A stretch of 23,871 nucleotides of DNA from a virus, in IMG/VR virus record IMGVR_UViG_3300025110_000127, positions 1 through 23,871 of that record. One strand, written 5' to 3'. The stretch's first letter is position 1. Every line of letters starts with the position of its first letter. Of the stretch, positions 4,574-20,320 are shown piece by piece. The notes under the pieces are model-generated. The model was given only the letters and a program-made list of their open reading frames with translations, was not told the origin of the DNA and ran no database searches. Position numbers and translations under genes: made by a program.

Positions 4574-5412
4574 TACCAAGGGTTCTCGGCATATTAATGC
4601 TAATCCCTTTTTGTCCTGTCGTCAAGGCAAGTGATGTGGGAGGAATATCAGCTACATCTAATCCGGTGGCTAACTCTTCCGGCCAAGCGAATGTCAATGC
4701 ATATCAAGTGTTGACAGGAAATTTCATGCAATCAGGTTTTACAAATGGTGTGGTCTGTCAATCCGAGACATTAACAATATCTCCTTACGTGGGTCGTTCT
4801 GCAAATATTAAGAAACCATTCTTTGAGACTTACGAAGATCCGGTATACGACGTCAGAGATATAGATGGTGACGGTGCTCCCGACAACCCTGGGAATATCC
4901 TTTGGTATAAAACAGTTCAAACTCTACAGAAAGACAACTATTCTCTCAACATGGGGGTGACTGCTCAATGGAGTAGACCCTTAGATCAGAAGATGATGTC
5001 TCTTTGCAAAGACGCTGCTGCGACTGAAATAGCCCTAAGAAAGGCAACATTAAATTTACGAGTCTTAGACTATGAAATTTCTAGACTCAAGCATTGTGGA
5101 AATCTAGCTAAGGAGGGCATAGTATGGGATCCGACCAGCAAATATAAAGTTATATGTGAGGACGTTTTATTAACTTCGCCTCCTGGGGTTTTATTAAATC
5201 ACAGTCATTCAATAGATCCTATTACTTTCGACTCTTCCTCTGTTCAATCATCCTCTCTCGAACAGACAGAATCTTCTCTTTCTTCCGAAGCTTCTTCAGA
5301 ATCGTCTTCGTCACTTTCTTCGCTAGAGGTTTCACAACCTTCATCAAGTACTGCTGGAGAGGTTGGCCCACTAGGGCCACCCCTAGAGTTGCGCCTACAG
5401 CTATCGAAGTAG
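4570..5412 (+). CDS. Exported protein, resembling a cyanophage-conserved family, with Ser-rich tail
   Basis: I place the start at GTG 4570, which overlaps the previous stop (GTGA) and gives a signal peptide (MIPRVLGILMLIPFCPVVKA); an in-frame start at 4402 would lie inside the preceding gene. The product has 280 residues. Visible blocks are GISATSNPVANSSG after cleavage, a calcium-loop-like DIDGDGAPDN near 97, and a conserved-looking helix ending RLKHCG then YKVICEDV. The last ~65 residues are Ser/Glu-rich and low-complexity; they lie in the 191-bp overlap with the - strand gene ending at 5222. Similar proteins are remembered from T4-like cyanophages. Confidence 0.65.
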   Translation: MIPRVLGILMLIPFCPVVKASDVGGISATSNPVANSSGQANVNAYQVLTGNFMQSGFTNGVVCQSETLTISPYVGRSANIKKPFFETYEDPVYDVRDIDGDGAPDNPGNILWYKTVQTLQKDNYSLNMGVTAQWSRPLDQKMMSLCKDAAATEIALRKATLNLRVLDYEISRLKHCGNLAKEGIVWDPTSKYKVICEDVLLTSPPGVLLNHSHSIDPITFDSSSVQSSSLEQTESSLSSEASSESSSSLSSLEVSQPSSSTAGEVGPLGPPLELRLQLSK

Positions 5413-6019
5413 TGTTGAGAATAGTCTGAGGAGGAGGAGTATAGTTATTGATGACATTAAGTAAGGCTATATCCTCATACAGAGTGATACATTCGCCTGC
5501 AGAGTTCTCTTCGTAACCTTTTACGATCTTCGTGCCGTATTTGCCATAGGCTCCCGGAGGGGGGCTTCCTGGTCGTGGACAGGGAAGCTTAACATCAGGA
5601 GGTTTGATAGCGTTACTATCAAGACCAGGAAGATTAGGGTTTTGAGCTGCTCCATCTGTAGTCGATTCATTCTTTTCCGTCGATTGATTATTTCCTAAGC
5701 CACTAACTGCCCCTAGATTGGGTTGATTATCCATAGGAATAACGACTAATTCTTTGCTTGGATCGAACTCGGGAGGGTTGAAGTAAGGCATCCCTGGCCC
5801 TGTGCATAGAGTTAGTGTTCCTTGGGGATCATCTTCTATTAACTTGTTATTGCCTTGTGTCTCTCTGGCTTCTACGCAACCAGGCATCTCTACGGTTGGG
5901 AAACCTATCTGAAGAGTTACAGGCGGTGCTTGAGGAATACTTAAAGGTAAATCAATCGCCCATGTCGGAACCTGTGGGACGTATATCTCCCGTACTCCGA
6001 TCCGAGGGATAGAACCCAC
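5222..6019 (-). CDS. Cyanophage-type proline-rich protein with C-terminal membrane segment and basic tail
   Basis: Codes for 265 residues from a GTG start at 6019, 5 bp after the upstream stop. The N-terminal half is Pro-rich with PTVEMPGCVEAR and DDPQGTLTLC blocks, which I remember from proteins of T4-like cyanophages (unverified). A hydrophobic segment follows at about 205-225 (TTSIAVGATLGVALVGQ) and the last 40 residues are very Lys/Arg-rich (KKVTKTILKKLRKKEK). The basic tail is antisense to the Ser-rich tail of 4570-5412. A membrane-anchored virion or membrane protein is inferred. Confidence 0.65.
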   Translation of the reverse strand: MGSIPRIGVREIYVPQVPTWAIDLPLSIPQAPPVTLQIGFPTVEMPGCVEARETQGNNKLIEDDPQGTLTLCTGPGMPYFNPPEFDPSKELVVIPMDNQPNLGAVSGLGNNQSTEKNESTTDGAAQNPNLPGLDSNAIKPPDVKLPCPRPGSPPPGAYGKYGTKIVKGYEENSAGECITLYEDIALLNVINNYTPPPQTILNTTSIAVGATLGVALVGQPLQQYLMKVVKPLAKKVTKTILKKLRKKEKILSVRERMIEQRKSRK

Positions 6020-6024
6020 TGATC

Positions 6025-6291
6025 TTACTTACGAACTGGCATAACTCCCCCAGTGGCACTAGGAATAGATAAAAAACTGCTAGAGCCGTTAGAAGGACTG
6101 CCACCGAAACCAGGTAATGCACCCTTGATTTGAGATTCGACCAAAGGTCCGACTTGTTCAATTAATGCCTTTTTAATTTTTTCTTTAGCGGCTGGAGATT
6201 TGAGGTAGAAATACCCTGCAATCGTTCCACCCACAAGGCTCCCAGATAATGCCAAGCTTGCAACAGCAAGAATAGTTGGAAGGTTTTTCAT
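6025..6291 (-). CDS. Small single-span membrane protein (cyanophage type)
   Basis: Codes for 88 residues beginning MKNLPTI. Residues 6-30 form a hydrophobic signal anchor (ILAVASLALSGSLVGGTIAGYF); a charged amphipathic helix follows (SPAAKEKIKKALIEQ), then a Gly/Ser/Pro-rich tail ending ATGGVMP. It lies 5 bp upstream of 5222-6019 and is probably cotranscribed with it. Similar short MKNLP-type proteins are remembered next to that family in cyanomyoviruses, unverified. Function unknown. Confidence 0.65.
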   Translation of the reverse strand: MKNLPTILAVASLALSGSLVGGTIAGYFYLKSPAAKEKIKKALIEQVGPLVESQIKGALPGFGGSPSNGSSSFLSIPSATGGVMPVRK

Positions 6292-6392
6292 GAGATTTTG
6301 GGTGCCATTTCTAATCTTAGGTGATTTTGCGTAGTGAACACAAAAAACATACCTACTGACGATTGTAGCGTGGTATTAATTGAACTCGTCAT

Positions 6393-6908
6393 TTGACACC
6401 AGAACACTGGGGCAGTTACGTGTTTGGTCTAGTAGACCTTTCAGGTAAAGCCGCTCGCAAACGTTTCCGTCAGTCAATCAAAGACGAATGGGGGTGTTGC
6501 GCTTATTGTGGGAAGAATCAAATTCACCTAACATTAGATCACATACGGCCAAGAGTCCGTGGTGGCAGTAGTATGAGATCTAATTTGATCCCTGCTTGCG
6601 TTCAATGCAACTCTCAAAAAGGCTCGGCAGAGTGGAAGGCATGGTTTGAAAACCAAGTATTCTTCTCAGCCGCAAGAGCTGCCAGAATCGAAGTATGGAC
6701 TAAACCTCGTACTTACGAAGTCTGGGAACATTGGTTTTTAGCAGGAGGTAATGATGACTCTGAATGCAGACTTGACACAGGAACAAAACTTCTTCCTTCA
6801 TCGAATAGCTCTGGAAGCGCAGTCGTATTCTCGAGACGAGCTTATAGAAGCGTTACTCGATTGCTGGGAGGCGAAGTTCAGGCAGAAGCAAACCTTTGTT
6901 GTGAGTAG
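6393..6908 (+). CDS. HNH endonuclease
   Basis: Codes for 171 residues from TTG at 6393 (the only start after an in-frame stop at 6381). The HNH core is complete: zinc-knuckle Cys at 36 and 39 (CAYC), LDH at 48-50, the GGSSMRSN loop, and Cys 69 and 72 followed by Asn (CVQCN). It probably nicks or cuts DNA, as a homing-type or packaging nuclease. Residues after about 120 are read through the first 155 bp of the NblA-like gene in another frame, so the natural C-terminus may be a secondary extension. No strong Shine-Dalgarno sequence is visible. Confidence 0.8.
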   Translation: MTPEHWGSYVFGLVDLSGKAARKRFRQSIKDEWGCCAYCGKNQIHLTLDHIRPRVRGGSSMRSNLIPACVQCNSQKGSAEWKAWFENQVFFSAARAARIEVWTKPRTYEVWEHWFLAGGNDDSECRLDTGTKLLPSSNSSGSAVVFSRRAYRSVTRLLGGEVQAEANLCCE

Positions 6909-8324: not shown

Positions 8325-8645
8325 TTATCTTCCATCTCCTTTTGTAAAGGTTTCTGAGTCGGGTCCTGTGAATCGATCATCGGTTCCCCATCCATTTCGT
8401 TGGTATTCCATAAGGAAGAGGAGGCAGCATCCTGCGTGGGCAAGATGAGAGTGTCCTGTTTCGGGGTCATTATCTTCTCCTCTCCACCAGGCAAAGAGGT
8501 GTCTACATAGCGCGGCAAAGTAACGCCCCCACTCAGTTCCCCTACACCAATTATTAGAGCTATACTTTCGAGCGCCGTAGCCGAGAACGTCAGCGATGTC
8601 TCCAACAGCTTGCCAAGGGACGAGATCAAAACGTGTTTTCTCCAT
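8325..8645 (-). CDS. MazZ-like dATP/dGTP pyrophosphohydrolase (all-alpha MazG superfamily)
   Basis: Codes for 106 residues, the usual length of this phage family. Diagnostic blocks are RFDLVPWQA (5-13), LGYGARKYSSNNW (21-33), CRHLFAWWRGEDNDPETG (47-64) and HLAHAGCCLLFLMEY (67-81), with the acidic and His residues that bind Mg2+ and nucleotide in all-alpha NTP pyrophosphatases. Relatives hydrolyse dGTP or dATP to the monophosphate; in Z-genome phages MazZ supplies dGMP for 2-aminoadenine synthesis. No PurZ or DatZ is visible in this window, so a general dNTP-pool role is as likely. Confidence 0.75.
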   Translation of the reverse strand: MEKTRFDLVPWQAVGDIADVLGYGARKYSSNNWCRGTEWGRYFAALCRHLFAWWRGEDNDPETGHSHLAHAGCCLLFLMEYQRNGWGTDDRFTGPDSETFTKGDGR

Positions 8646-8696: not shown

Positions 8697-8987
8697 TTGA
8701 AAGGAAATCCAAGTGCGCCTTATAGATATAGAGACACTAAACCTTTAGTGCGTAAATATTTAGCACAAACTCGCAAGCTTGCTAAAGATGCTCAGTCTTA
8801 TGGCGGCAGTACAGGAGGAAGAAAAAGTTTAGATTCCCAAGGCAGAGGAATGGTTACCCTCAGTGCCAGATCCGCTGAAGCTGCCGAAAGAGGTAAAGTA
8901 TTTGCGGAGTCAGGCAGAGGTGCCTTGGGTGCAAGACAATCTATATGGGAAGTAAAGAAAGATCTTTACCCTGACTTAGGTACTTGA
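8697..8987 (+). CDS. Hypothetical small protein
   Basis: Codes for 96 residues from TTG at 8697; AGG-type purines are weak upstream. The sequence is basic at the N-terminus (YRYRDTKPLVRKYLAQTRK) and Gly/Ser/Ala-rich in the middle (YGGSTGGRKS), with no Cys and no membrane segment. It is divergent from the MazZ-like gene and overlaps the convergent gene 8966-9421 by 22 bp. No family recognised. Confidence 0.5.
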   Translation: MKGNPSAPYRYRDTKPLVRKYLAQTRKLAKDAQSYGGSTGGRKSLDSQGRGMVTLSARSAEAAERGKVFAESGRGALGARQSIWEVKKDLYPDLGT

Positions 8988-9421
8988 GATATAGCAGAAG
9001 CTTCTACTAATTTATTAGTTAAAGCTTTTAAAGATAATCGACTATTTCTTTTCGTTGAGTTGTAATGCAATAAATCTTGCGCTGTGAAATCTTCAATCAT
9101 AAAACGACAAGTCTTACCAGAGTTCCAATTCTCATCAGTATCACTTGGATCCCACCATAAGACAAATTCATACGGCGACTCTGTAGTAGCTTTATAGTTT
9201 GGTAAAGATTGATGAAGTTTATGAACTCTGCCAGCTAGTTCGATAATATTGTTGTAAATATCTTCAGAGAGTAATGCATGTTGTGCAATGTCGTCAGGGA
9301 GGGCGTCCTTCCATGTGATCCACGAGTCGTAAATGATTGCTCTAATCGTCAAAAATTTTTGCCCTGTTGGATTGACGAAAGTCGTAGGGGAATTTTCGAA
9401 GAGGGGATCAACTATAGACAT
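8966..9421 (-). CDS. Hypothetical protein downstream of the Dam-like gene
   Basis: Codes for 151 residues; its ATG directly abuts the stop of the Dam-like gene upstream, so it is in the same - strand operon. A Trp-rich block (YEFVLWWDPSDTDENW, residues 85-100) and a helical, basic C-terminus are seen. There is no known domain I recognise. Last gene of the operon on this strand before the convergent small gene. Confidence 0.65.
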   Translation of the reverse strand: MSIVDPLFENSPTTFVNPTGQKFLTIRAIIYDSWITWKDALPDDIAQHALLSEDIYNNIIELAGRVHKLHQSLPNYKATTESPYEFVLWWDPSDTDENWNSGKTCRFMIEDFTAQDLLHYNSTKRNSRLSLKALTNKLVEASAISQVPKSG

Positions 9422-10057
9422 TCAGGCACGATAGTTATATGGTTTTTTCATTGTCACTTTGTAGGATTTCTCCCAGTCTTTACTACCACTGTATTCGTTA
9501 AATATAATTCTGCCCAAAGGATTAAAGGCGGTATGAAATCGAGAGACCATGGCATCGAACTGTTGATGATCTTCTGGAGGTGGCAGATAGATAATGGCCG
9601 ACCAATTTGATGGTGCAACTCCTCTGAAAACTTCTAGTTCGTCGTCCCACCATGTCGGTCTTAAACGTCGAAACGGTATACACATGGGAAAGTCCCATAC
9701 CCAAGGTGCTCTGATAATGGATTCGTTATGAGCCAACCATAATATTGCATGTTCTATATTTCCTTTTTGATATTCATTAAGAGTCTTATTAATTAAACGT
9801 CTAGTTAAAGCCGCACCAGCAGGAGCTCCTACGAATACACGTTTGCGAGAAGGCTCATCCCATTCAGTATTAATAATATCTTCTAGAGACAAATCATCTC
9901 TATCGTAATAACGAGCTGCTTGTACTAAGCGATTAATATCTTTAGTCGAATAAGGGTCAAGATCAATAGATCCTAAGACAGATCTGGCTGCTTTAACTAC
10001 ATCGATGGGAGGAGCTAGGTTGCACTTGTCCGGTCTTTCTGTAGCTAATTCACCCAT
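9422..10057 (-). CDS. Dam-like (phage N6-adenine methyltransferase family) protein without the NPPY motif
   Basis: Codes for 211 residues. The arrangement fits the phage Dam-like family: APP near the start, an SAM-site-like GSIDLDPYS (29-37), a short Asp-rich loop (YYDRDDLSL), the strand RVFV, and later AILWLAHNES and PFRRLRPTWW. In active members the strand ends in Asn-Pro-Pro-Tyr; here the residues are GAPAG (77-81), so the catalytic Asn/Asp and aromatic are absent. I infer either a non-catalytic SAM- or DNA-binding protein or a changed activity. Coupled to neighbours by near-abutting stops and starts. Confidence 0.6.
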   Translation of the reverse strand: MGELATERPDKCNLAPPIDVVKAARSVLGSIDLDPYSTKDINRLVQAARYYDRDDLSLEDIINTEWDEPSRKRVFVGAPAGAALTRRLINKTLNEYQKGNIEHAILWLAHNESIIRAPWVWDFPMCIPFRRLRPTWWDDELEVFRGVAPSNWSAIIYLPPPEDHQQFDAMVSRFHTAFNPLGRIIFNEYSGSKDWEKSYKVTMKKPYNYRA

Positions 10058-10504
10058 TTATAAATCGTCCATCATTTCTTGAATTTTCTTAGCTGGCATG
10101 TCTCTCATTATTCGACTTACTGACCCTCCTGAATTATCCAGAAATAAAATAACAATGTGTTGGTTAGCGTTAGAATCTCTGATTGTTTTTAAAGCATCTT
10201 TAATAAACTCTTCTACAACAGTATCTTTAGAATTCATAGCGTCTACTAAGTCTTTTTCTAACGAATCAACTGTGACGTAATTATTTATATTATCCTCTTT
10301 AGGATTTTTCAAATTAACAATCAAAGCACCTTCACCCATAAGGGAATAAAGCTTATCATATTTAGCTATTAAGTCAGAAATAATTGCCTCGCAAATTCTG
10401 ACATTTAATTCTTTAGATGCTTTTTTATTGGAAGAAGCAACTGTTTTGTCTATTAATTCTGGAAAGAATTTAACTAATAATTCAAGAGGCTTGGGTCTTG
10501 CCAT
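10058..10504 (-). CDS. Hypothetical helical protein
   Basis: From ATG 10504 (MARPKP; a TTG six bases earlier is the alternative) the product has 148 residues. It is Lys/Asp/Asn-rich with helices (KKASKELNVRICEAIISDLI), a hydrophobic strand HIVILFLDNSGG near 118-129 and a helical end (KKIQEMMDDL). The strand followed by Asp-Asn-Ser-Gly recalls a nucleotide- or metal-binding loop but no family is recognised. It overlaps the end of the upstream gene by 23 bp and stops 1 bp before the next ATG. Confidence 0.6.
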   Translation of the reverse strand: MARPKPLELLVKFFPELIDKTVASSNKKASKELNVRICEAIISDLIAKYDKLYSLMGEGALIVNLKNPKEDNINNYVTVDSLEKDLVDAMNSKDTVVEEFIKDALKTIRDSNANQHIVILFLDNSGGSVSRIMRDMPAKKIQEMMDDL

Positions 10505-10667
10505 GTGCAATAGTGCTGCGTTGATAGTCTACAAGTAAAAGATCTGTTGCTTCCTCTATTCGACGCGCTACGGGTAGATATTGTTGAAACTTAGGGTCTC
10601 GAGATATTTGATCTACAAGATCACTGCATCCATCATGGATTAATGCAAGTTCGTAAATTGAATTCAT
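10482..10667 (-). CDS. Small hypothetical protein after the thyX-like gene
   Basis: Codes for 61 residues, starting next to the stop of the ThyX-like gene (TTTAAATG). The sequence is helical (RRIEEATDLLLVDYQRST) with a single Cys and no membrane segment. Position suggests cotranscription with the nucleotide genes. Function unknown. Confidence 0.55.
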   Translation of the reverse strand: MNSIYELALIHDGCSDLVDQISRDPKFQQYLPVARRIEEATDLLLVDYQRSTIAHGKTQAS

Positions 10668-11423
10668 TTAAACTCTTAAATCTAATTTTGATCTGTGTTG
10701 TGTAGACCACCAAGTATATACTTGAGGTATCCAAGAATTAATGTGATCAGCAATCTTAGATACTAAGTCTTGCATTTCGTAAGACTTGTGAGGCCTTGAA
10801 TGACTGTCTAATAATTGAAGCCATGAACGCAGACTACCTGAAGCTACTGATTTTTGCAATGTATTAGTTGTGAGCCATTGACTTGTATGATGGCTCCCCA
10901 CCCCTATCTCTTTTCTTGATTTAATATCAAACGCAGTTGACAATCCAAAAGCTAATTGCTCTTGCCTGTCTTCTTCAGTCCAAGGATGTCTATGCCCTGT
11001 GTGATCAGGGTAATTCCCTGGAGGTCTTGCTGAGAATAAATCTTCTAAGTCAGTTGACTTCTCTGTAATAGCTAATTGAGTTCCTTCAGCAACTTCTCCT
11101 AAAGATTGATTCGTAAAAGTAATCAATTTAGTTTCAGCAGCAAGTTCATATAAGGTTGCAATATCTGCATGAATCTCGAAAGATATAACAGGATGTTCTA
11201 AGGGCGAGTAAGCACTCCAAGATGGAATCCTATTACTAGATTGCAAATAATGTTCTGCTATATAGTGACCACAAGAATCTTCCGAATATTGAGTAGGCTC
11301 ACCTTCTTGTTCTTCTGGCAGGGAACCTCCAAAGCGAGCATTGTATAAAGCTGCGTAAATTAAACGCTGCGGCATCTCTGTAGCTGACAGCTTCTTGACA
11401 GCACAGTTTTTGGAAAACTCCAC
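10668..11423 (-). CDS. ThyX-fold protein lacking the RHR signature
   Basis: Codes for 251 residues from GTG. Two ThyX landmarks are clear: SPLEHPVISFEIHA (73-86), the substrate/FAD-domain strand, and WLTTN...SLRSWLQLL...HKSYEMQDL (183-220), the C-terminal dUMP-binding helix region. Yet where active flavin-dependent thymidylate synthases have RHRxxSxNxxSxR, this protein has AETKLITFTNQSLGE (96-110), and the Arg of LRxDxHAQ is replaced in LDSHSRPHKS. So key FAD/dUMP contacts are missing. It may be inactive, regulatory, or have a new substrate. Neighbour genes include dCMP deaminase further upstream. Confidence 0.6.
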   Translation of the reverse strand: MEFSKNCAVKKLSATEMPQRLIYAALYNARFGGSLPEEQEGEPTQYSEDSCGHYIAEHYLQSSNRIPSWSAYSPLEHPVISFEIHADIATLYELAAETKLITFTNQSLGEVAEGTQLAITEKSTDLEDLFSARPPGNYPDHTGHRHPWTEEDRQEQLAFGLSTAFDIKSRKEIGVGSHHTSQWLTTNTLQKSVASGSLRSWLQLLDSHSRPHKSYEMQDLVSKIADHINSWIPQVYTWWSTQHRSKLDLRV

Positions 11424-14251: not shown

Positions 14252-14758
14252 TTAAGTTTGTTCTTCAAGTTCTTCAACCTCACTAATATCTCCATCCATA
14301 GGAATTCTCTGAACAGACACACCAGCTTCTACGCACATTTCTCTTGCTTTGTCGAAAGACTCTTGCCATCTATAAGGCTCAACATAATCTGGAACAATAA
14401 TTTTAGCGATGTCTGCTTGGATTAAAACTGCGGCACAATTACTGCAAGTCATTAATGGCCAAATATACATAGTCGATCCAGCTAGGCATACTCCATTTCG
14501 AGCGGCAAAAGCTACACAATTCATCTCTGCATGTACAGTCATGCTCAGTCGAGTCTCTCTATCCTTGAGTCTGTAATCAGAATCTGTTATACCGTGAGGA
14601 AGACCGTTATAGCCCTCAACTAATATTCTTCTATCACGAACTGCTAATGCTCCAACTTTAGTACTTGGATCTTTAGACCAACCAGCAAACATCCTAGCGG
14701 CGTGCAGGAATCGTTGATCCCAATGTTTTGGAGCTCGTGGTGCTTTTAAATATGTCAT
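14252..14758 (-). CDS. Deoxycytidylate (dCMP) deaminase
   Basis: Codes for 168 residues. The zinc cytidine-deaminase signature is complete: HAE at 76-78 (VHAEMNCVAFAA) and C105-x2-C108 (TCSNCAAVL); the N-terminal KDPSTKVGALAV and GYNGLPHGI blocks are typical of phage dCMP deaminases. The usual Pro before the first Cys is Thr. It converts dCMP to dUMP, feeding thymidylate synthesis. It is the first gene of the - strand operon leading through HNH, structural genes and the thyX-like gene, and is divergent from 14789. Confidence 0.9.
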   Translation of the reverse strand: MTYLKAPRAPKHWDQRFLHAARMFAGWSKDPSTKVGALAVRDRRILVEGYNGLPHGITDSDYRLKDRETRLSMTVHAEMNCVAFAARNGVCLAGSTMYIWPLMTCSNCAAVLIQADIAKIIVPDYVEPYRWQESFDKAREMCVEAGVSVQRIPMDGDISEVEELEEQT

Positions 14759-15820: not shown

Positions 15821-18166
15821 TCAGGATGATTGTATCCAAACCCTTTGACTTTTATTATCTCTTTTGATTCTTTTTGGTTTATAACCTAATCTTTTTAAGC
15901 AATCTGTTACTGGAATATTCATTTGCCCTTGTTGAGCCACGTTAATATCAATCCAACTGAACAAATCAGCAAGGACTATATATTTGTGAGGTCCGTGATA
16001 GCCACTTGAATTCTGCTCCAATGCCCTTGTTACTACAGCATCGATAGGCGAATCACGAGTGAATGAGTCCTGATAGTCAGCAATATGACTAAGCTCATAG
16101 CTAGAAAAGACATGCACTGGGTTATCAAGATAAGCCTTATAAGCTGCAGCCCAGATAGAATTGCGGTCTTGTTTTAAGCGATCTAAGTCAATAATCTTGA
16201 GATCAGGATTCTCCTTAGAAGGAACCTTGCCTCTGACAATGATTGGCATAAATCGACGATTGCCAGTTGGATCGCAAAGGAAATCAGTATTGTTTGTTGC
16301 ACCTGCTAAAACAAACGCACGAGGATAAGACTTCTCATTCTCATATTTCCTTGCAGACCTATCAACTGAAACTGATATCAAGTTCTTCAGTTCTTCCGAG
16401 TACTTCCTCTTGCAGTAACGTTCGAATTCATCCATGACGACAATAAATCCTGCATGTAAAGCATGAGGTTTTTCCTTTAAGTATTCGATACCTTGTTGCA
16501 TCGTCACGACCCAAGGGTATGTTCCTAAATCTTCGACAGAAGGAGGAGTTAAATATTGGAAGAATGTTGTTTTACCACAGTTCTGACTACCAATAAGAAT
16601 TGGCATCCAATCGTGACGTGTTCCTGGAGATAAGACTCTTGCAACAGCTCCTATTAAAAACCTTTTCATAATGACATCTGCCAACAGATTGCCATCTGGC
16701 ATTCGAGGATTTTGAATATCGTCCTCAGGAACCCCGAGTATTTCTGACGCTATTCGATCAAAATAGGGACAAGGATCAGAGCTAGCAGCACAATGCTCCA
16801 GATACGTTTTGACAGGGTGAAATCTGTTTTCATAACCAATGACTCCGGCGAGGTCAAATACTAATGTCTTTGGAAAGATTTGTCCTTGTCCTCTAGAAAT
16901 ATAAACATAAGCCTGTGATATGTCATGGATTTCCCGAGGACGATCCTTTGGTCCATAGACCAATTGCTGACTCATACAATTTAATCTTAAGCCATTGTAT
17001 TGAGCATTCAATAGATCTTTAATTCGTTCTACTAAATCTTGATTGTCTCCGCCACTCCTAGCAGGTGTTGCTAAAGGGGGAGTTTCATCGTATTCAAAAG
17101 ATGCGACTTCACTCGATTCATTATCTTCATCTGGCTTTTCTATGACTGCTATCTGAGTCCAAGGCCTATCTTTATCAAATAATCCTTGAGATTGCTCAAC
17201 AGTTTCCACGGTCTCAGGTTCGCCTAAGAAATCTTCGTGAGCATATCCAGCGAAAGAATCCCCGTAGACTCCTAGCCTAAAATCTCCAGTACCACCTTTT
17301 AGTTCTGGAGGTAATGACTTCCTCCAACCGGGTTGTTGGGTATCGGCAGCCCAAAAGATTGTGGCAAGAGATCTACCTCTCCATCCTCTGAAGAATTTTT
17401 CGGAGGTTTGGGATGAGTTCTTTCCTTTTCCATGATGTCCTCTGGATGCCCAATCTGACCAGTAGGAAAACAGAGAATCTCCAGCCGTACTGGCTGCTCT
17501 CGTGATGTTGCAGAAATGATCTCTTTCTCCATCTGAGGTTGGCTCGAGAATATGTTCGAGACAGTAAGCAGCAAGGTTAATGGATAGTTCATCTACGTCT
17601 GCTGATTGTGCATGGTAAGTTGTCCTCTGTTGAGCGGCATGAGTTTGAGCATCCTCTATAAAAGAATAGGGGAGTATTGCTTTTGGCTGCCAAACAGGAT
17701 GTTCAGACCGACTATTGCCGTAGAAGATTCGACAACGATCAGAACAATTAGGATCACCGCCAAGAGATTTTATTAGTAAGCTGGTAACCGATTGGTATAA
17801 TTCTCCATCTGATATTCTTTGAGGTAGTTGGAATATAACCCTGAAACGATGTTTATCTTTTTCAGGATTGTGGCTTGCTGAAGTGTAAACCCATGCAGCT
17901 TCTTTATAGAGAGCATGTTTACTAAAACCTTCCAAGGTTAATCCATTGTCTATATCGACAACAGCTAAGTCTGAATAGTCAAAAGCTGCACTATTTCTGT
18001 GACCAGAAATCATAGCAGCAGGAATAAAAGCCTTGCCGTGACTGATATGGTCACGTAAATCTTGAAGAGTTCCTGTTTCTCTTATCCATCCTTTTCCAAA
18101 AGACGACATCCAATGAGTCGGCTTATTGAACAGCATGGGGTGAATGCTGTATTCAATCTTACGCAC
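15821..18166 (-). CDS. PrimPol - VapE-type primase-helicase
   Basis: Codes for 781 residues. The N-terminal AEP/PrimPol part has the catalytic AVVDIDNG (DxD, 71-73), ASHN...HRFRVIF (97-112) and DRCRIFYG (143-150). A PriCT-like helical region with Trp-rich YWSDWASRG (235-243) follows. The C-terminal half is a virulence-associated-E/D5-like helicase: Walker A GSQNCGKTT (526-534), Walker B VVMDE (576-580), sensor-like GATNNTDFL and GNRRF (635-639). It probably primes and unwinds DNA at phage origins. GTG start; it overlaps the small upstream gene by 8 bp. Confidence 0.85.
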   Translation of the reverse strand: MRKIEYSIHPMLFNKPTHWMSSFGKGWIRETGTLQDLRDHISHGKAFIPAAMISGHRNSAAFDYSDLAVVDIDNGLTLEGFSKHALYKEAAWVYTSASHNPEKDKHRFRVIFQLPQRISDGELYQSVTSLLIKSLGGDPNCSDRCRIFYGNSRSEHPVWQPKAILPYSFIEDAQTHAAQQRTTYHAQSADVDELSINLAAYCLEHILEPTSDGERDHFCNITRAASTAGDSLFSYWSDWASRGHHGKGKNSSQTSEKFFRGWRGRSLATIFWAADTQQPGWRKSLPPELKGGTGDFRLGVYGDSFAGYAHEDFLGEPETVETVEQSQGLFDKDRPWTQIAVIEKPDEDNESSEVASFEYDETPPLATPARSGGDNQDLVERIKDLLNAQYNGLRLNCMSQQLVYGPKDRPREIHDISQAYVYISRGQGQIFPKTLVFDLAGVIGYENRFHPVKTYLEHCAASSDPCPYFDRIASEILGVPEDDIQNPRMPDGNLLADVIMKRFLIGAVARVLSPGTRHDWMPILIGSQNCGKTTFFQYLTPPSVEDLGTYPWVVTMQQGIEYLKEKPHALHAGFIVVMDEFERYCKRKYSEELKNLISVSVDRSARKYENEKSYPRAFVLAGATNNTDFLCDPTGNRRFMPIIVRGKVPSKENPDLKIIDLDRLKQDRNSIWAAAYKAYLDNPVHVFSSYELSHIADYQDSFTRDSPIDAVVTRALEQNSSGYHGPHKYIVLADLFSWIDINVAQQGQMNIPVTDCLKRLGYKPKRIKRDNKSQRVWIQSS

Positions 18167-19938: not shown

Positions 19939-20102
19939 TGAAATCTGAACAACCTAATACTGTTGTAGGAACAGAGACTCAAAGATTAGAAGAAGGTAAA
20001 CTCATCGCTGAAAGAGTGAATGGATACGCTGCCCTCTTTGGATGTGCTGCTCTTATAACTGCTTACGCTACAACTGGTCAAATTATCCCTGGTTTCGTTT
20101 AA
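19938..20102 (+). CDS. hli: High-light-inducible protein 3
   Basis: Codes for 54 residues with an 18-residue polar N-terminal extension before the helix. The motif is ERVNGYAALFG: Glu and Asn are kept, Arg is Tyr. The end is AYATTGQIIPGFV. Coupled by TAATG to hli2 and hli4. Confidence 0.85.
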   Translation: MKSEQPNTVVGTETQRLEEGKLIAERVNGYAALFGCAALITAYATTGQIIPGFV

Positions 20103-20320
20103 TGACTTCATCTACTCAATCTGTAGCGGCTGCATCTACTGTTACTGAATACGGTAAGCAGAATATTTTTGCTAAAGAGCCTCAGACACAGCTAGTCGAA
20201 GACTACAAAGGTTATGTTAAGGAAGCTGAATTAGCTAACGGTCGCTGGGCAATGATCGGCTTTGCCGCTCTTCTCGGTGCTTACATTACTACTGGCCAAG
20301 CTCTCCCTGGAATCTTTTAG
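20102..20320 (+). CDS. hli: High-light-inducible protein 4 (canonical motif)
   Basis: Codes for 72 residues from ATG 20102 (an upstream ATG at 20042 would overlap hli3). It carries the canonical motif ELANGRWAMIGF and ends AYITTGQALPGIF. A longer Ser/Thr-rich N-terminus precedes the helix, as in many cyanophage Hlips. Its last 90 bp are antisense to the end of the nuclease gene 20231-21073. Confidence 0.9.
   Translation: MTSSTQSVAAASTVTEYGKQNIFAKEPQTQLVEDYKGYVKEAELANGRWAMIGFAALLGAYITTGQALPGIF

Follow-up and report, generated by a model that had tools for sequence, protein, structure and literature searches.

Results

Fold and family assignment

The DNA analysed here (the window; IMG/VR record IMGVR_UViG_3300025110_000127, positions 1 to 23,871, its full length) encodes a homologue of the flavin-dependent thymidylate synthase ThyX in which the catalytic RHR motif cannot be recognised. 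The gene is:

10668 to 11423, minus strand: candidate ThyX-fold pseudoenzyme, 251 aa, GTG start (Pfam Thy1; AF2 model; PDB fold search; nine further contigs with the dead form, i.e., the form lacking the motif)

The initial annotation of this DNA, made from the letters alone, had described the frame as intact, and it is indeed open over its full length and subject to purifying selection (see below). It had also assigned a ThyX fold. The profile search does return ThyX, as the 251-aa product matches Pfam Thy1 (PF02511) above the cut-off (E value 5.8e-7; 29.9 bits versus 24.8), while the 29.7 bits obtained with the TIGR02170 thyX model are far under its equivalog cut-off of 87.9. Because a phmmer search of the PDB with the single protein gave no match, a fold comparison was needed. 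The AlphaFold model, for which the window and locus sequences served as input, has a mean pLDDT of 85.1 and a pTM of 0.84. All 50 PDB matches listed in a fold search with this model are ThyX-family chains (best E value 8.4e-10), and among these 50 the E values are about 1e-9 and the TM-scores normalised by target are 0.64–0.80. The leading named matches in a viral structure library are likewise ThyX. Based on the model together with the PDB and viral library matches, the predicted ThyX fold is firm. The motif regions on which the assignment had been based are also real: SPLEHPVISF of the window aligns with TPFEHIVFTF of Thermotoga maritima ThyX, and SLRSWLQLL...HKSYEM aligns with ARSLMNFL...HAQWEI of the same enzyme.

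Loss of the active site

The FAD and dUMP ligands of ThyX are the RHR motif, Ser88, Arg90, the lid residue Tyr91, Arg165, and Arg174 (PMC6514825; PMC3498832). Eleven ThyX positions, the majority of which appear in published work, were compared using T. maritima numbers or their equivalents, and the altered sites include the following:

11130 to 11141, minus strand: site of the R(x)HR FAD/dUMP motif, residues 95–98, reading AAET (RTHR in all active relatives; alignments)
11094 to 11105, minus strand: S88-x-R90-Y91 site (substrate phosphate and lid Tyr), residues 107–110, reading S-L-G-E (alignment; roles from PMC3498832 and PMC6514825)
11211 to 11213, minus strand: equivalent of T. maritima His53, Ala71 (alignment)
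10881 to 10883, minus strand: equivalent of T. maritima Arg147, Ser181 (alignment)
10800 to 10802, minus strand: equivalent of T. maritima Arg174 (dUMP contact), His208 (alignment)

Among the eleven positions, the window protein retains Ser88 and Arg165, and has lost RHR, Arg90, Tyr91, Arg147, Arg174, and His53. Thus Ser88 alone is kept of Ser88, Arg90 (Gly), Tyr91 (Glu), and Arg174 (His); Glu144 is replaced with His. Both substitutions named in the initial annotation are borne out, since the R(x)HR site reads AAET and the dUMP-contact Arg174 has become His208. Both His53 and Glu144 turn up as studied mutants among the listed PDB matches, and Arg147 of T. maritima ThyX is presumably a dUMP contact. 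A comparable contact is made by Arg166 of PolB (PMC5003785).

A displaced RHR was sought by alignment elsewhere in the window protein, and none was found. The HRH of GHRHPW (residues 143–148) was considered as a moved motif and rejected, as it lies in another loop and is not invariant (RHRNPF in the related contig L116, DKQFKW in L119); for the same reason the R(x)HR pattern match in L116, which is this RHRNPF, is not the motif.

The RHR motif is lost in all nine dead copies analysed. Arg165 is retained in eight of the nine, so some residual ligand binding may persist. Of the columns conserved across 174 active relatives, six distinct dead copies retain 10 of 66 cells in the ligand columns and 112 of 288 in the other conserved columns, the cells not being independent; counted as whole columns kept in at least five of the six copies, the values are 1 of 11 and 13 of 48, respectively, a weak contrast that is descriptive only. 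As judged from the alignments, standard ThyX catalysis by the window protein is not credible, and the binding of FAD, dUMP, and folate has probably been lost.

Distribution of the dead form

Scans of IMG/VR revealed the same dead form on ten contigs of uncultured cyanobacterial phages, i.e., the window and nine further ones, all with intact ORFs of similar length. The extent of identity to the window protein is 69% for L001, 62–63% for L016, about 49% for L017 and L018, 37–39% for L115–L118, and 30% for L119, which is so divergent that it might have another role. In the tree, the nine dead copies that were analysed group as a single clade (support 100/100), the stem of which measures 1.21 changes per site. 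Together with the intact ThyX of L019–L024, L027, and L120 they constitute a group with support of 99/100, the order inside which is not settled by the tree. R(x)HR is present in 155 of 155 other relatives tested, including 80 loci from genome contigs, mostly of Synechococcus, Cyanobium, and other cyanobacteria. Since the site is absent from the window and nine further contigs and the motif is present in all of these relatives, the AAET site is more than chance or a single bad assembly. Genome contigs scanned with the dead pair as query gave no match, and no cellular dead ThyX was seen among them; intact ThyX is present in Synechococcus and Cyanobium genomes.

Two further ThyX genes were encountered. 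On L121 (2001–2699), a ThyX with 62% identity to the phage sister clade is found on a contig assigned by binning to a Phycisphaerae genome; this is possibly a mis-binned phage contig. On L003, a 243-kb phage contig, a 578-aa frame (4804–6540) contains a canonical ThyX split just before the LEHP motif by a long insert that looks like an intein.

Gene order and neighbouring genes

Without exception, the dead gene occupies the same position within a packed nucleotide cassette. The relevant neighbours in the window are:

8325 to 8645, minus strand: dATP/dGTP diphosphohydrolase (PF18909), motif apparently intact (profile match 5.6e-32)
8966 to 9421, minus strand: 151-aa syntenic protein (ORF calls, synteny)
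9422 to 10057, minus strand: Dam-like protein with GAPA in place of NPPY, common to intact-ThyX phages (tblastn, fold search, motif)
10058 to 10510, minus strand: 150-aa syntenic protein, overlapping the 61-aa ORF (ORF calls, synteny)
10482 to 10667, minus strand: 61-aa ORF with its ATG directly after the ThyX stop (TAA/ATG), in all dead-clade cassettes (ORF calls, synteny)
14252 to 14758, minus strand: dCMP deaminase, HAE and CxxC intact, which would supply dUMP (profile match, motif)
15821 to 18166, minus strand: replication protein with a VapE-like helicase domain; nearest isolate matches include S-LBS1 and S-2L (profile, similarity)
20042 to 20320, plus strand: chlorophyll a/b-binding protein of the high-light-inducible type, which marks a cyanobacterial phage

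The window shares with L019, L020, L027, L120, and L023 the order VapE-domain replication protein, dCMP deaminase, 227-aa protein, ThyX, 150-aa protein, and Dam-like protein; most of these five contigs also have the PF18909 diphosphohydrolase and a small ORF following ThyX. In all five, the ThyX position is occupied by an intact enzyme. Because intact ThyX holds the syntenic position in sister phages and all other relatives tested carry the motif, parsimony indicates that the dead gene arose in situ, once, as a loss. The 61-aa ORF was considered as a partner unique to the dead clade and rejected, as a similar small ORF is found there in intact-ThyX phages.

A second Thy1 was sought, and a single one was found on the window and on each of 14 related contigs; ThyA (PF00303) was absent from eight related contigs. 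As IMG/VR contigs are perhaps incomplete, an unseen second thymidylate synthase is possible. The 150-aa protein of the window shares 51–64% identity with its dead-clade relatives, and those of L001 and L016 share 89%, which suggests replacement or recombination in the window. Two 2OG-Fe(II) oxygenase-like proteins (PF13759; 7785–8321 and 19044–19610, both plus strand) have no close match in the compared phage contigs.

The gene had been described as lying next to a MazZ-like and a Dam-like gene. The former is real as the PF18909 diphosphohydrolase. The latter description holds in part: there is a weak likeness, with 24–32% identity to phage adenine methyltransferases by tblastn and a weak RlmJ fold match (E value 9e-3), but NPPY is absent. 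The Dam-like protein is degenerate in the whole phage group, even where ThyX is intact, and a co-loss of the two enzymes was rejected for this reason. It is a probable second pseudoenzyme of the cassette, judging by its motif, and may be older than the dead ThyX. As the protein is weakly Dam-like and lacks NPPY, the ThyX-like, PF18909, and Dam-like genes alone do not make a DNA-modification cassette.

Selection and evolutionary rate

Under a codon model, omega for the dead clade is 0.096 (lnL -4686.8, versus -4935.1 with omega fixed at 1, i.e., worse by 248 lnL units). The corresponding values are 0.035 for intact sister ThyX and 0.014–0.050 for neighbouring genes; as pairwise dS is mostly above 1, single values are rough. 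The ratio of ThyX distance to that of four neighbours is 1.96–3.07 in dead pairs and 0.54–0.67 in intact pairs, with no overlap, and relative to the neighbours the dead ThyX evolves at 2.4 times and the intact copies at 0.6 times the rate. When the window is compared with L116, identity is 98% for the diphosphohydrolase and 79% for the dCMP deaminase, as opposed to 39% for the dead ThyX. The dead ThyX is thus under constraint and nevertheless changes unusually fast, a speed that would also follow if the constraint were partly relaxed.

Discussion

Compared with ThyX (PF02511, TIGR02170), the fold, the overall motif order, and the syntenic position shared with the intact enzyme of sister phages are alike. 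The dead form differs in the absence of R(x)HR, Arg90, Tyr91, Arg147, Arg174, and His53, in scoring under the equivalog cut-off, and in being predicted unable to make dTMP. The gene therefore combines the features of a selected pseudoenzyme: an enzyme fold, loss of catalytic and ligand residues, and purifying selection. We propose, with a probability of roughly 60%, that it encodes a ThyX pseudoenzyme which lost ligand binding once and has been kept for a non-catalytic role.

A decaying relic, whose frame stays open because its translation is coupled to that of the ORFs downstream, might account for an omega that exceeds the value of intact ThyX by a factor of about 2.7 and those of the neighbours by factors of 2–7, and the ThyX stop does abut the next start directly. 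Coupling, however, requires an open frame and not the conservation of amino acids implied by the poor fit of omega = 1; moreover, the fold is confidently predicted and every copy is full length across many divergences, which makes a relic quite improbable. A new enzymatic activity or ligand in the emptied cavity is unlikely, if somewhat less so. Glu93, Glu97, Glu110, and Glu113 are common to four copies (window, L001, L016, and L018), the first three in place of the Q, H, and Y of active ThyX, and PolB, the UMP/dUMP methylase of polyoxin biosynthesis (PMC5003785; PDB: 4p5b), demonstrates that a diverged ThyX fold can change its substrate and role. Yet PolB retains FAD and the Arg and His substrate ligands and remains catalytic, unlike what is predicted for the dead ThyX, and the acidic residues are absent from L115–L118 and partial in L119, for which reason a metal site formed by the four Glu residues was rejected. 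Nearly all of the 33 columns invariant in the nine dead copies also occur in active or sister ThyX. Leu189 and Tyr215 are the only ones clearly specific to the dead form, and Tyr215 is the only clearly new invariant polar residue. Had the copies acquired a new active site in common, new invariant polar residues would be expected, so binding is likelier than catalysis. Of the two possibilities raised in the initial annotation, a decoy or regulator and an altered nucleotide-modifying enzyme, a non-catalytic role thus fits best and the altered enzyme is less likely.

If the dead ThyX is a pseudoenzyme, it would presumably work by binding a partner. A scaffold or regulator within the phage's own replication or dNTP-precursor complex, which overlaps with the preferred reading, is conceivable but doubtful. 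The fixed place in a packed cassette with the dCMP deaminase, the diphosphohydrolase, and the VapE-domain replication protein would suit it, as would the precedent of the MHV68 uracil-DNA glycosylase, whose binding to viral replication proteins does not depend on its catalytic residues (PMC10312458). The co-encoded would-be partners are, however, 60–98% identical between the window and L116, and a partner of slowly evolving proteins should not be the fastest gene of the cassette. Host ThyX is the likeliest single partner, and even this choice is tentative and well short of even odds. It is suggested by three observations: ThyX forms tetramers whose active sites lie between the subunits (PMC6514825), the related host enzyme is intact, and rapid divergence would fit a host target that itself changes.

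In the proposed scenario, the ability to bind FAD, dUMP, and folate would have disappeared from the phage ThyX at this locus a single time, in the ancestor of the group, and the protein would then have been retained for a non-catalytic role. The dead protein might join or cap host ThyX tetramers, so that their activity is altered or blocked during infection; host ThyX, supplied by the phage dCMP deaminase, might nevertheless continue to provide the phage with dTMP. Alternatively, the host enzyme might be held by the dead ThyX in a phage precursor complex. The full proposal, that a fast-evolving dead ThyX inserts into cyanobacterial ThyX tetramers and controls thymidylate synthesis as a viral prozyme or anti-enzyme derived from a host-type enzyme, is speculative and rather unlikely to hold in every part. 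Targeting of the host enzyme is directly testable.

Roles have been proven for non-catalytic homologues in viruses and parasites (PMC8431809; PMC10312458; PMC3663545; PMC5201418). The M45 protein of MCMV is an enzymatically dead ribonucleotide reductase R1 (PMC8431809), and resembles the present case as a viral enzyme of nucleotide metabolism that is inactive and still needed; it differs in its unrelated fold, its animal virus origin, and a function shown by experiment. In trypanosomatids, deoxyhypusine synthase forms a heterotetramer with a dead paralogue (PMC3663545), and this enzyme and the AdoMetDC prozyme (PMC3663545; PMC5201418) exemplify a dead paralogue of an oligomeric enzyme, as here. 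In those systems one genome encodes both the active partner and the dead paralogue, and binding has been demonstrated, whereas here the partner would be that of the host. Pseudoenzymes are thus already known; no published ThyX pseudoenzyme was found in the open-access literature searched.

The thyX genes of phages are routinely classed among the auxiliary metabolic genes, as producers of dTMP. In the present case the Thy1 match passes the cut-off although the enzyme would be unable to work in the usual way, so that both the annotation and any metabolism deduced from it would be wrong. With the intact and the dead version sharing one locus in sister phages, the two would provide a natural before-and-after experiment in the conversion of a viral metabolic enzyme into a non-catalytic protein.
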